Program-made: the position numbers and the translations under genes | Assembly: GCF_035987325.1 (NCBI RefSeq) | Contig: NZ_CP108488.1 | Span: 1,860,001 to 1,924,000 of the forward strand | DNA from: Streptomyces sp. NBC_01244 | Lineage (GTDB): Bacteria; Actinomycetota; Actinomycetes; Streptomycetales; Streptomycetaceae | Direction: 5' to 3' | Length of the DNA: 64,000 nucleotides | Part shown: piece after piece, positions 59,612-62,821 of the stretch | How positions within the stretch are numbered: the first letter of the stretch is position 1 | Layout of the letters: the number at the start of each line of letters is the position of its first letter | Notes under the pieces: generated by a model | What the model was told of the DNA's origin: nothing | What the model saw: the letters and a program-made list of their open reading frames with translations, nothing else | Database searches by the model: none

Positions 59612-60223
59612 TCAGTGCTCGTCGGCCAGGATCAGGTAGAGCTTCTTGCGGGCGTCGTTGATGACGGCGAGGGCCTTCTCCCGCTGCTCGGGAGTGCCGG
59701 TCTTGAAGACCTGGCCATAGGCCTCCATCAGGCCGAATCCGGCCGTCCGGACCTCGTTCATCGCCTCGAAGTCGAAGCCGCGGCCGGCCTGCTCCCAGGG
59801 AGCGTCCGGGCCGGACTCGGCCTCGGTGCGGCCGGCGTCGGTGAGCGTGAACAGCTTCTTGCCGCCCTCGCTCGCGCTGGTGATGAGGCCCTCGTCCTCC
59901 AGGAGCTGCAGGGTCGGGTAGACCGACCCCGGGCTGGGCCTCCACGCCCCGCCGCTGCGCTCGCCGATCTCCTGGATCATCTCGTAGCCGTGCATCGGCC
60001 GGTCGGCGAGCAGCGCCAGGATGGAGGCGCGCACATCACCCCGCCGGGCCCGACCGCGCGGTCCGCCGCGCCCACCGAAGGGCCCGCCGCCGAAGGGCGG
60101 CCCGAACGGCCCGAAGGCGGCACGCCGCCCCTGGAACTCCTCCCGACGGTCCGGCCCGCAGTGGCCGTGACCCCGTCCGTGCTCATGTCCGTGGTCGTGT
60201 CCGTGCTGTCCGTGTGAACGCAT
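59612..60223 (-). CDS. PadR-family regulator with His-rich N-terminus (YqjI-like)
   Basis: Regulator of 203 residues. Residues 3-22 are rich in His (SHGQHGHDHGHEHGRGHGHC) and could bind metal. Residues 23-62 are Gly/Arg/Phe-rich. The PadR winged helix follows (ILALLADRPMHGYEMIQEIG; PSPGSVYPTLQLLEDEGLI) and then a C-terminal helical dimerisation part. The layout is that of E. coli YqjI, a nickel-responsive PadR protein. ATG 60223 is chosen over ATG 60250 because AAGGAG lies eight bases upstream. Its promoter and a palindrome at 60306 suggest autoregulation. Confidence 0.9.
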   Translation of the reverse strand: MRSHGQHGHDHGHEHGRGHGHCGPDRREEFQGRRAAFGPFGPPFGGGPFGGRGGPRGRARRGDVRASILALLADRPMHGYEMIQEIGERSGGAWRPSPGSVYPTLQLLEDEGLITSASEGGKKLFTLTDAGRTEAESGPDAPWEQAGRGFDFEAMNEVRTAGFGLMEAYGQVFKTGTPEQREKALAVINDARKKLYLILADEH

Positions 60224-60276
60224 GACTGCGCTCCTTTCGTCATTCGGCATCTCGTTGTCGCTGTTGCGATGTTTCC

Positions 60277-60305
60277 ACTATCACTGACCCATCGCGATGC
60301 GTCAA
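60277..60305 (-). promoter_or_regulatory. padR promoter (-35 TTGACG, -10 GATAGT, 17-bp spacer)
   Basis: On the minus strand TTGACG (60305-60300) and GATAGT (60282-60277) are 17 bp apart, a near-consensus vegetative promoter. The start codon at 60223 leaves about 45 bases of leader. Confidence 0.7.
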
Positions 60306-60315
60306 CGATATATCG
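60306..60315. promoter_or_regulatory. CGATATATCG palindrome next to the padR -35 box
   Basis: A perfect 10-bp AT-rich palindrome directly upstream of the -35 hexamer. PadR proteins often bind such ATAT-containing dyads; candidate autoregulatory operator. Confidence 0.5.
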
Positions 60316-60355
60316 GAACCTTTCTCAACGAACACCCGAGATCACCCCGGTCCGC

Positions 60356-60449
60356 TGTCCCGTCTCACCGAAGGTTGGTCAGTCTCACCGAACCTTGACC
60401 ACTCGGCTGTTTGTCTCATCGAACTTTGACCGCCGCAGGTCAAGGGCAG
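60356..60449 (+). repeat. Left terminal inverted repeat (94 bp)
   Basis: Contains GTCTCACCGAAGGTTGGTCA (60362-60381), GTCTCACCGAACCTTGACCA (60382-60401) and GTCTCATCGAACTTTGACCG (60413-60432). The only mismatch with the right arm is at 60394 (C here). Confidence 0.9.
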
Positions 60450-60710
60450 ATGTGGCCCCCGAGCCAGGCCGGCGCTGACAGCGACGGGGCTGGCCAAGGG
60501 TCGCCTGGCGGTTGAGGTCGTCGAGCGGGCGGGCGCGGCCGGCCAGGACCAGGCGGCGATTGCCCAGGGCCACGTCGTCGAGCTGGAATTCACGCACGCA
60601 CTGCCTTCGGCCGGGCTGGCGTGGACGGCGGCCAGGGCCAGGGCGAGTCGTGCGGCCGGCGCCGCGTCGACGGCGGCACGGATCTCGTCGCCGGGCCGCT
60701 GCGGCCTCAC
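60450..60710 (-). pseudogene. Frameshifted tyrosine-recombinase/integrase fragment
   Basis: Two overlapping minus-strand frames join into one plausible protein piece: RPGDEIRAAVDAAPAARLAL and on to HASPAEG (60600-60710), then after a shift REFQLDDVALGNRRLVLAGR and ARPLDDLNRQATL (60480-60597). This reads like the middle of the tyrosine integrases common on Streptomyces elements (LDDVDLGNRRL-type block). It has no start, no catalytic Tyr region, and runs into the left terminal repeat. A remnant, not a working gene. Confidence 0.5.
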
Positions 60711-60819
60711 GGAGGGGATTTCAGGCTGACTCCGACGGGTTTCGTCACCACGCAGGCGATGCCATCTGCCCGCTCGTGGAGTGCAGCCTCCGAGCCACGT
60801 CAGGAGCGGCCCGACCGAG

Positions 60820-61695
60820 TCAGCGGGAATCCGTTGCGTCGTCCTCGGCCGGGCCGGGGGCTGCCGTGCTGTCGGCGGCCTGGCCGGCGGCTCGTTCCGC
60901 GCGGAGTTCTTCGCCGACGTCGTAGGCCCGGCCCGGGTCGTAGACGATGACCGAAGTGCCAGGGCTGTACATCGCGGCTGCCGCGGGCGTGTACTGGTAG
61001 ATTCCGACGCCGCGCTGGGCGGCTATGCCGTCGACCTCGCCGACCGGTACCTGCCACACCTTTGCGGTGTGGGACGGCGTCCACCACGCGTCCGGACGCA
61101 GGAAGTCTCGCTTGACCTCCGTCTGATGCTCCACCGCCACCTGGACCTGGCCGAGTTGCTCGGTCAACCAGTCGGTCAGCGCCTGTGCGTCGACCCGAGA
61201 GAACGCTGCGGACGTCATCGGTTCGCACTCCACCGTCTCGCTGCCGATATGCAACACCACCTTGATCGACTTGCGCTGCCCCAGACTCAGTCGCTCGATG
61301 ACGACGACTCGCTGCAGATCAGCCATCGTCATGGTCGACGAACGCAGAAAGCGGGCGATCACGATCTGGGCCGGAGCTCCCAGGGGGCGGAACTCGACCC
61401 ACCGCACCATCAGGGCGACCGTGACGAACACCATGGCCACGGCGAGCACGATCACTGCGACCACCGTGAGCGCCAGTAGGACCCAGAAAATGCCCCAGGC
61501 GAGCGAGCTCCCCGAGATCACGGCGGCCACCAGAGCACCCAGCAGAAGCGGGGCTGCGACCACAGGCGGGACCATGATGCTCCCGCCGAGCGCGACAGCC
61601 AGCTCCCGGGCCCGGCTGGGCACGAACAGCAGCCGCCATCCGGCTGTCACGGGTAACACAACTTCCGCAAGCGAGCCGGGACGCCGAGTTTCCAT
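60820..61695 (-). CDS. Membrane protein carried by the insertion cassette, function unknown
   Basis: Protein of 291 residues. Two hydrophobic segments (about 38-62, IMVPPVVAAPLLLGALVAAV; and about 66-93, IFWVLLALTVVAVIVLAVAM) precede a soluble domain (about 100-200, strand-rich, LQRVVVIERLSLGQRKSIKV) that could be PH-like, and a disordered acidic tail. TACCTT (61702-61707) six bases before the ATG and TTACGA 17 bp further up make a leaderless promoter inside the element. No transposase, toxin or resistance motif is seen. Confidence 0.72.
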   Translation of the reverse strand: METRRPGSLAEVVLPVTAGWRLLFVPSRARELAVALGGSIMVPPVVAAPLLLGALVAAVISGSSLAWGIFWVLLALTVVAVIVLAVAMVFVTVALMVRWVEFRPLGAPAQIVIARFLRSSTMTMADLQRVVVIERLSLGQRKSIKVVLHIGSETVECEPMTSAAFSRVDAQALTDWLTEQLGQVQVAVEHQTEVKRDFLRPDAWWTPSHTAKVWQVPVGEVDGIAAQRGVGIYQYTPAAAAMYSPGTSVIVYDPGRAYDVGEELRAERAAGQAADSTAAPGPAEDDATDSR

Positions 61696-61825
61696 GACTC
61701 AAAGGTAGGACCCTGCACAGGAGTTCGTAAGGCCACAGCGAGCCGTACCTCCTCGAGGACCGGAACCGCAGGCGACAGCGCGTCAGCCGACCAGGTGGCG
61801 CCGGCCAGTCCCGGGAGCCACCTAC

Positions 61826-61919
61826 CTGCCCTTGACCTGCGGCGGTCAAAGTTCGATGAGACAAACAGCCGAGTGGTCAAAGTTCGGTGAGACTGACCAA
61901 CCTTCGGTGAGACGGGACA
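61826..61919 (-). repeat. Right terminal inverted repeat (94 bp)
   Basis: Reverse complement of 60356-60449 except at 61881. Similarity continues weakly for about 30 bp inside both arms. Confidence 0.9.
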
Positions 61920-62002
61920 TCCACGCCGGCCGGCAGGAGCCAGTCCAGTCGTCCCGGATTGGCCTTTGCGGCCGGCTCCGCCGCGTCCCTACGGTCGGTG
62001 AC

Positions 62003-62821
62003 ATGCGCATCCGAATCGTCGACGCCTTCACCGACCGCCCCTTCGGCGGCAACCCCGCCGGGGTCCTGCTCCTCGAAGGCGGGTTCCCCCCGGACGCCTG
62101 GCTCCAGCAGGTCGCCGCCGAGGTCAACCTCTCCGAGACCGCCTTCGCCCATCCGCTCCCGCCCGACGGCGAGGCGGACTGGGCGCTGCGCTGGTTCACC
62201 CCGGCCGCCGAGGTCGACATGTGCGGCCACGCGACCCTGGCCACGGCCCATGTCCTGGCCACCGGCGGCCTCGCGACGGGGACGGTCCGCTTCTCGGCGC
62301 GCTGCGGAATCCTGAAGGTCACGGCCGCCGAGGACGGGTCCCTGGTCATGGACTTCCCGACCTCCTCGCTGACCGAGGTCGAGCCGGACGCCGCCGTGGA
62401 GCGCGCGCTGGGCGCCACGGCGAAGTCGGTCCACGACACCTCCGAGCACATCGGGGACCTCGTGGTGGAGCTGGCCGACGAGCGGGCCGTACGGGAGCTC
62501 ACGCCGGACCATGCCGCCCTGCGCGGCTACTCCCGGCGCGGGATCATCGTGACCGCGGTGGCCGAAGACCCCTCCCGCGGCTACGACTTCGTCTCGCGCG
62601 GCTTCTTCCCCGCGGTCGGCATCGACGAGGACCCGGTCACCGGCAGCGCCCACACCGCCCTGGCCCCCTTCTGGGCGCGGCGGCTGGGCCGCACGGAGCT
62701 GGTCGGCCTCCAGGGCGGAGCCCGCACCGGCCTCGTCCGGGTGCGGCTGCTGGGCGACCGTACGCTGCTGATCGGGCGCGCGGTCACGGTCGTCGACGGC
62801 GAGCTGCTCAGCGCACCGTAG
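62003..62821 (+). CDS. PhzF-family isomerase-like protein
   Basis: Protein of 272 residues with the diaminopimelate-epimerase-like double fold of PhzF. VNLSETAFAHPL (about residues 43-54) holds the conserved acidic residue. MCGHATLATAHVL (about 74-86) and DEDPVTGSAHTALAPFW (about 210-226) are family motifs. No phenazine genes are near, so the substrate is unknown. TACGGT (61990-61995) lies seven bases before the ATG, consistent with a leaderless mRNA. It starts 84 bp after the insertion cassette. Confidence 0.9.
   Translation: MRIRIVDAFTDRPFGGNPAGVLLLEGGFPPDAWLQQVAAEVNLSETAFAHPLPPDGEADWALRWFTPAAEVDMCGHATLATAHVLATGGLATGTVRFSARCGILKVTAAEDGSLVMDFPTSSLTEVEPDAAVERALGATAKSVHDTSEHIGDLVVELADERAVRELTPDHAALRGYSRRGIIVTAVAEDPSRGYDFVSRGFFPAVGIDEDPVTGSAHTALAPFWARRLGRTELVGLQGGARTGLVRVRLLGDRTLLIGRAVTVVDGELLSAP

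Follow-up and report, generated by a model that had tools for sequence, protein, structure and literature searches.

A single-gene cassette bounded by Tn7-like ends in the padR-phzF interval of Streptomyces sp. NBC_01244, probably moved in trans

The window analysed here is a stretch of 64,000 nucleotides from Streptomyces sp. NBC_01244, located on the 9.5-Mb contig of a 10.0-Mb genome. Near its right-hand end a padR-family regulator gene and a phzF-like gene flank a compact segment bounded by long inverted arms. The features of this region are as follows.

59612..60250, minus strand: flanking padR-family regulator gene (Pfam PadR, 6.8e-22)
60295..60315, plus strand: conserved box CGATGCGTCAACGATATATCG in the padR-phzF interval, left of the insertion, a marker for the orthologous site
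60351..60355, no strand: left flank TCCGC, probable target-site duplication (4/5 identical to the right flank)
60356..61919, no strand: whole cassette, 1,564 bp, non-autonomous, recognised by its arms and flanks and by homology with copies elsewhere that stops within 17 bp of the ends
60356..60449, plus strand: left 94-bp arm, a terminal inverted repeat (66.7 bits against an end profile that includes this arm)
60362..60381, plus strand: repeat 1 of the left arm, candidate TnsB site
60382..60401, plus strand: repeat 2 of the left arm, candidate TnsB site
60413..60431, plus strand: repeat 3 of the left arm, candidate TnsB site
60820..61695, minus strand: cargo gene, 291 aa (some homologues are named "Integral membrane protein" by the source)
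61826..61919, minus strand: right 94-bp arm (67.4 bits against an end profile that includes this arm)
61844..61862, minus strand: repeat 3 of the right arm
61875..61893, minus strand: repeat 2 of the right arm
61895..61913, minus strand: repeat 1 of the right arm
61920..61924, no strand: right flank TCCAC, probable target-site duplication (4/5 identical to the left flank)
62003..62821, plus strand: flanking phzF-like gene (Pfam PhzC-PhzF, 1.2e-60)

The two arms, 94 nt each and separated by 1,376 nt, are 99% complementary with one mismatch, and a chance match is excluded for an inverted repeat of this kind. Each arm holds three copies of a repeat of about 20 bp (consensus GTCTCAYCGAANNTTGACCA, read by eye), two in tandem and the third 31 bp further in, with the right arm mirroring the left. 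The cassette begins and ends with TGTCCC...GGGACA and therefore has both the TGT...ACA termini and the arrays of ~20-bp sites that characterise Tn7-like ends. This architecture agrees with a first-pass annotation made from the letters alone, which had described 94-bp arms with one mismatch, three 20-mers per arm, TG...CA ends and a possible 5-bp duplication, TCCGC/TCCAC. The flanks are as it read them and agree at four of five positions. The search of the host genome that it proposed places the arm sequence at two positions in the 10.0 Mb, both at the cassette.

One plausible gene lies between the arms, at 60820-61695 on the minus strand. Its product matches nothing in Pfam at E<=1 or in PADLOC, nothing of significance in NCBIfam and nothing useful among solved structures. 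The names of some homologues support the earlier description of the cargo as a membrane-protein-like gene in a cassette lacking a transposase; neither the gene list nor family searches place a transposase gene between the arms, and no Tns match was found in the window's own loci. The length of 291 aa is kept in the window copy and in L036, L037, L155-L157, L199 and L200, with a stop in the L157 copy. Among close copies the differences are spread evenly over the three codon positions (dN/dS 0.62-0.96 for the pairs computed), and a mild third-position excess appears solely against homologues that are 52-59% identical; the gene may therefore be diversifying or weakly constrained, as judged from these substitution patterns. 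For the DUF2199 cargo of other cassettes dN/dS is 0.11-0.26. The stretch beside the cargo gene, 60497-60687, has matches of about 70-89% in many of 33 Streptomyces plasmid records, mostly without the remainder of the cassette.

The interval between padR and phzF offers a direct comparison of occupied and empty sites. Matches to the phzF side were found in 57 of the 61 genomes searched, the host included, and the comparison itself covers the 29 relatives' loci listed (L126-L154), in which the 21-bp box was taken as recognisable if at least 15 of 21 positions agreed. The box stands between padR and phzF in 18 of these 29 loci; an operator role for it would be a guess. Thirteen of the 18 are empty, with the box starting 98-191 bp from the phzF start codon, so that this check, set beforehand, came out in favour of an insertion. 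In the window the box-to-phzF distance is 1,708 bp, or 139 bp after subtraction of the cassette and one duplication. The closest relative at phzF (G012, 86%) has no recognisable box and is not informative for an empty site. The five occupied loci differ in content: at L154 there is another cassette of the same end family, with DUF2199 cargo; the unit in L127 has a recognisable end (E 1.7e-4) and that in L131 a weak one (E 0.023); L128 and L152 are filled by other genes, which lack cassette-type ends. The DUF2199 cassette has relatives, with L007 (G232) and L012 (G024, the locus of L154) alike across both flanks and L018 (G262) resembling them across at least one; given these shared flanks, the three copies probably occupy one common site.

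Arms of this type form a family with members dispersed across Streptomyces. Arm-like matches occur in 25 of 295 genomes, in 32 of 392 in a larger, overlapping draw, and in 19 plasmid records; a 25-base end pattern allowed two mismatches is present in 53 of the 295 genomes, and the reversed pattern in none. Using an end profile built from 119 seed ends, some of which adjoin tnsA (L088, for example), we paired facing ends into 34 candidates, or 31 units once three alternative pairings of the same units were removed. Their 5-bp flanks are identical in 11 of 31 and agree at four or more positions in 18 of 31, compared with means of 0.5 (maximum 4) and 1.9 (maximum 8) in 5,000 rounds of shuffled right flanks. 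Position by position, 17-23 of the 31 units match across the five flanking bases, against 5/30 and 3/31 just outside. A 5-bp target duplication, as expected of Tn7-like transposition, is thus found at the level of the family, with the window copy at 4/5; weak when taken alone, this flank match gains credibility because related units match over exactly five positions. Outside the set of 31, flanks match fully in L216 (GTGAC/GTGAC) and L225 (GTCAT/GTCAT), at 4/5 in L219, 3/5 in L223 and 1/5 in L226. At L215 4001-5815 two cassettes lie together; GCTGC is shared by their outer flanks, whereas the inner flanks differ.

The listed units range from 246 to 3,412 bp and mostly hold one plausible gene each. 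In many related units one of the two ends is weaker or absent, and several copies retain only a partial arm. The left end at L157 4802 is apparently one tandem repeat short, and repeat number may vary among cassettes. No obvious target motif was seen by eye in the 40-bp flanks of 19 units, mostly picked for good duplications. Ends facing away from each other lie 5 and 10 bp apart at L121 1525-1531 and L107 1525-1536, and at L224 1576-1590 a cassette end is 13 bp from a TnsABC end.

Several cargo genes recur between such ends at more than one place. The window's gene is found between same-type ends on a plasmid of Streptomyces sp. NBC_00080 (L036, flanks CCAGG/CCAGG) and in S. bobili (L155, flanks GTGGC/GTGGC), and L156 and L157 carry it with a single detectable end; in all, ends are detectable at five of the 14 examined loci that carry it, the other loci having none. 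The S. bobili unit holds a second gene, IS110 transposase-like by eye. Other recurring cargoes are the DUF2199 protein, a small protein of no assigned family (L010, L025, L016, L048) and a protein with weak HEAT similarity (L009, L045, L167), and the cassette at L039 4261-5754, which lies upstream of parA, encodes an HNH protein with matches to type IV restriction enzyme models. Homology stops exactly at the ends when L010 941-1573 is aligned with L025 1543-907 and L009 994-1567 with L045 4001-4574, and within 17 bp of them when the window is aligned with L036 and L155. The same cargo and ends at different places, these homology boundaries and the 5-bp duplications together imply that the units moved at about their present size. 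The absence of a transposase, copies at different places, duplications and empty sites are the hallmarks of a mobile insertion cassette.

These observations bear on the possibility that the segment is a degraded autonomous Tn7-like element, a deletion relic that lost tnsABC in place and does not move by itself. The cassette indeed has no transposase genes, and many relatives have a weaker or missing end; however, several species carry the same cargo between same-type ends at differing locations, with homology that breaks off near those ends, and compact units show 5-bp duplications, all of which make a relic of this sort improbable. The two views are compatible to the extent that cassettes may have begun as deletions.

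What machinery could move the cassettes? The first hint was a tnsA-like gene near one arm at L041. Read by eye, the same end plan stands beside tnsA in seven of eight plasmid tnsA neighbourhoods (L041 and L059-L064), the exception being the second tnsA of L061: TGTCC or TGACC is followed by repeats at about +6, +26 and +57, in letters that vary by subfamily. A profile restricted to 40 ends of 20 cassettes, from loci without Tns genes, matches ten of 30 tnsA loci (L168-L197) with E<0.01, in each case 55-98 bp upstream of the tnsA match and on the same strand as tnsA; the query that gave these loci was the G010 TnsA, selected because its end looks like the arms, and hence they are a non-random sample. 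In the 30 loci drawn first (L065-L094) it gives four matches, on the tnsA strand 199-309 bp upstream (L065, L088, L089 and L093; L088 and L168 are one G010 element), and in three rounds of shuffled loci it gives none. The 119-seed profile, partly circular here since its seeds are in part tnsA-adjacent, matches 11 of 30, compared with ten for the cassette-only profile. Near tnsA, most loci have no match to the cassette profile: 20 of the 30 in this set and 26 of the 30 drawn first. Self-repeats at +6/+26/+57 exceed every shuffle in six of the loci drawn first, which are those of the 30 best NF033179 matches (scores of 43-51 of 60 versus at most 35). In five of these six the self-repeats lie 199-254 bp upstream of the tnsA match, and in the other they lie 1.1 kb upstream.

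An element with such ends is present in G204 (L164 4855-11404, 6,550 bp), where tnsA, tnsB and tnsC follow in order and the profile matches both ends (E 1.7e-9 and 7e-4); its edges carry a 7-bp direct repeat, GCTTCAA, rather than a 5-bp duplication. Among six TnsABC elements with two candidate ends a 5/5 duplication is found solely in L061 (GCCGG/GCCGG), and the hand-read flanks of the elements at L059, L161, L162 and L165 show no target duplication. Pfam places Mu-transpos_C and TniB domains in the Tns proteins, and one operon includes a TniQ protein. The cassettes therefore have ends in common with an autonomous family by plan and by profile, a matter of resemblance rather than near-identity. 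By plain identity the nearest element end is that of G010 (L162), at 52 of 77 bases, in an element whose tnsB is in two separated pieces, and at this distance it does not single out a specific helper for the window cassette. No full element with near-identical arms was found among the matches listed from 295 and then 392 Streptomyces genomes (overlapping draws, with the loci of 30 matches from each), nor among the 13 distinct annotated plasmid places that bear arms (17 of 19 records opened, L048 and L219 having no gene table, L214 repeating L045 and L040 repeating L039). Tns genes occur in three of 51 arm-bearing loci, some of which overlap: at L041 and L224 a tns element adjoins a cassette, and L019 is part of or beside the G204 element.

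The host itself has no detectable helper. Its genome gives no TnsA match, though 184 of 295 genomes match the family, and no TnsB match, though G010 and G058 match in the same search; nor does it contain a full element with the same arms. TnsA matches occur in 20 of the 25 arm-bearing genomes, a mild excess over the 184 of 295 overall. With tnsA, tnsB and tnsC absent from the cassette and undetected in the host, we class the segment as a cassette with Tn7-like ends and not as a Tn7-like transposon. Lacking a detectable TnsA or TnsB, the cassette is probably stranded and, judging by gene content, probably immobile now.

On plasmids, arms lie within 4 kb of a parA gene at six of the 13 distinct annotated places, as a raw count (L036, L039 with L040, L043, L044, L045 with L214, and L217; the remainder are L041, L042, L046, L047, L215, L216 and L218). 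At four of these (L039, L043, L044, L045) the distance between an end and the parA start is 138-188 bp; for the beginning of the TnsABC element of L064 it is 64 bp. A target preference of cassette and TnsABC ends for plasmid parA starts is possible. The same proximity could be turned into another reading, in which the 20-mers are centromere-like partition repeats, ParB-type sites rather than transposon ends, since plasmid arms are often close to parA or parB. We give this almost no credence: the arms are paired in inverted orientation, bear TGTCC at their outer termini and show matching 5-bp flanks, they resemble tnsA-proximal ends, and they also occur on the chromosome, between padR and phzF.

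An alternative source of such ends would be an IS21-type mobile cassette, the arms serving as IstA binding sites on which a full IS21 element acts in trans. IS21 ends carry several internal repeats and TG...CA termini, as do the arms, and the host has istB-like genes (nine PF01695 matches, eight over the cut-off and three covering the whole model). However, the cassette-end profile matches none of the nine istB-type loci of the host at E<=10, in loci that extend 1.5 kb past istB, so that a far end could fall outside, and an earlier search with the 119-seed profile gave no match in the IS21 region of L063. The arms occur in the genome only at the cassette, and their end plan is found beside tnsA instead. 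Neither istA nor istB, the genes of an IS21 element, is encoded in the cassette, and neither appears in the gene tables, themselves incomplete, of the opened arm-bearing plasmid stretches. The end comparison covers the host's istB-type loci and hardly samples IS21 elements of other genomes; within that scope we judge an IS21 origin very unlikely. Of the earlier proposal, a mobile cassette moved in trans by an IS21-like element, the transposase-less mobile cassette stands, as does movement in trans by inference, whereas the attribution of its ends to IS21 gives way to the plan of TnsABC ends.

Altogether, we consider it likely that TnsABC moved the segment in trans, as a non-autonomous insertion cassette with Tn7-like ends. 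From the arms, the common end plan, the 5-bp flank matches of the family, the empty sites and the homology boundaries near the ends, all of them observed, we infer that TnsB binds the arms, that movement occurs in trans and that it follows cut-and-paste chemistry. We envision a scenario in which the three repeats of each arm are candidate sites for binding by the TnsB of actinobacterial TnsABC elements. Such an element would enter the cell, for example on a plasmid, and supply helper functions; TnsB would pair both arms, TnsA and TnsB would excise the cassette, and TnsC would choose the target, in at least one element together with a TniQ-type protein. A 5-bp duplication would result from the insertion, and the cassette would have arrived between padR and phzF in an ancestor of the present strain. 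A broader idea, which we put forward tentatively and hold to be less probable than not, is that Streptomyces hosts a shared pool of single-gene cassettes riding the TnsABC of separate elements, much as integron gene cassettes form a pool but on a transposon basis; each family keeps its own gene and ends, helpers come from plasmids, and a target selector may direct helpers and cassettes alike to plasmid partition loci, immediately upstream of parA, and to a small number of chromosomal sites, padR-phzF among them.

The actinobacterial Tn7-like TnsABC elements (NF033179, TnsA_like_Actin) are among the systems closest to the cassette: they have the same end plan and, in L061, a 5-bp duplication, but they encode TnsA, TnsB and TnsC and the cassette does not. 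A survey of Tn7-like elements, in the part available, began from tnsB and calls an Actinobacteria-dominated clade experimentally uncharacterised (PMC8649781); given that starting point, tnsB-free cassettes would escape collection. Partial result listings from the open-licence literature contained nothing on single-gene Streptomyces cassettes bounded by Tn7-like ends, and the available parts of PMC10293859 and PMC10969869 make no mention of such cassettes. Surveys that start from tnsB overlook cargo that moves without it. If the cassettes are moved in trans, Tn7-like machinery spreads more Streptomyces genes than its own elements reveal, often singly, and these would include the L039 protein with its match to restriction-enzyme models. 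For the experimentally uncharacterised clade the analysis supplies end sequences as well as candidate helpers, together with the testable idea that a target selector favours plasmid partition regions.

Mobile insertion cassettes have no transposase, carry a passenger gene between the inverted ends of a mobile family and are thought to be moved in trans. They are among the closest precedents, as far as the available part of the source describes them (PMC3913671): the window unit likewise lacks a transposase and has a passenger gene, inverted ends and presumed movement in trans. None with Tn7-like ends appears in the literature listing or in that part of PMC3913671. The present units differ in that their ends are multi-repeat TnsB-type arrays and that units with different genes share one end family. 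A second parallel is offered by tni-defective Tn5053-family elements and class 1 integrons, which the available part of PMC7765201 holds to be moved with Tni in trans, to have 5-bp repeats and to lie near res or parA-res regions. The window segment is not itself such an element, as its sole plausible gene has no family match and the window copy has no integrase or tni gene match. The likeness lies in non-autonomous relatives of the Tn7/Tn5053 group with 5-bp repeats and movement in trans; those elements, however, are described there as remnants that carry mer or integron modules, in Pseudomonas and on plasmids (PMC7765201), whereas the units described here are compact, mostly hold one plausible gene and reside in Streptomyces.
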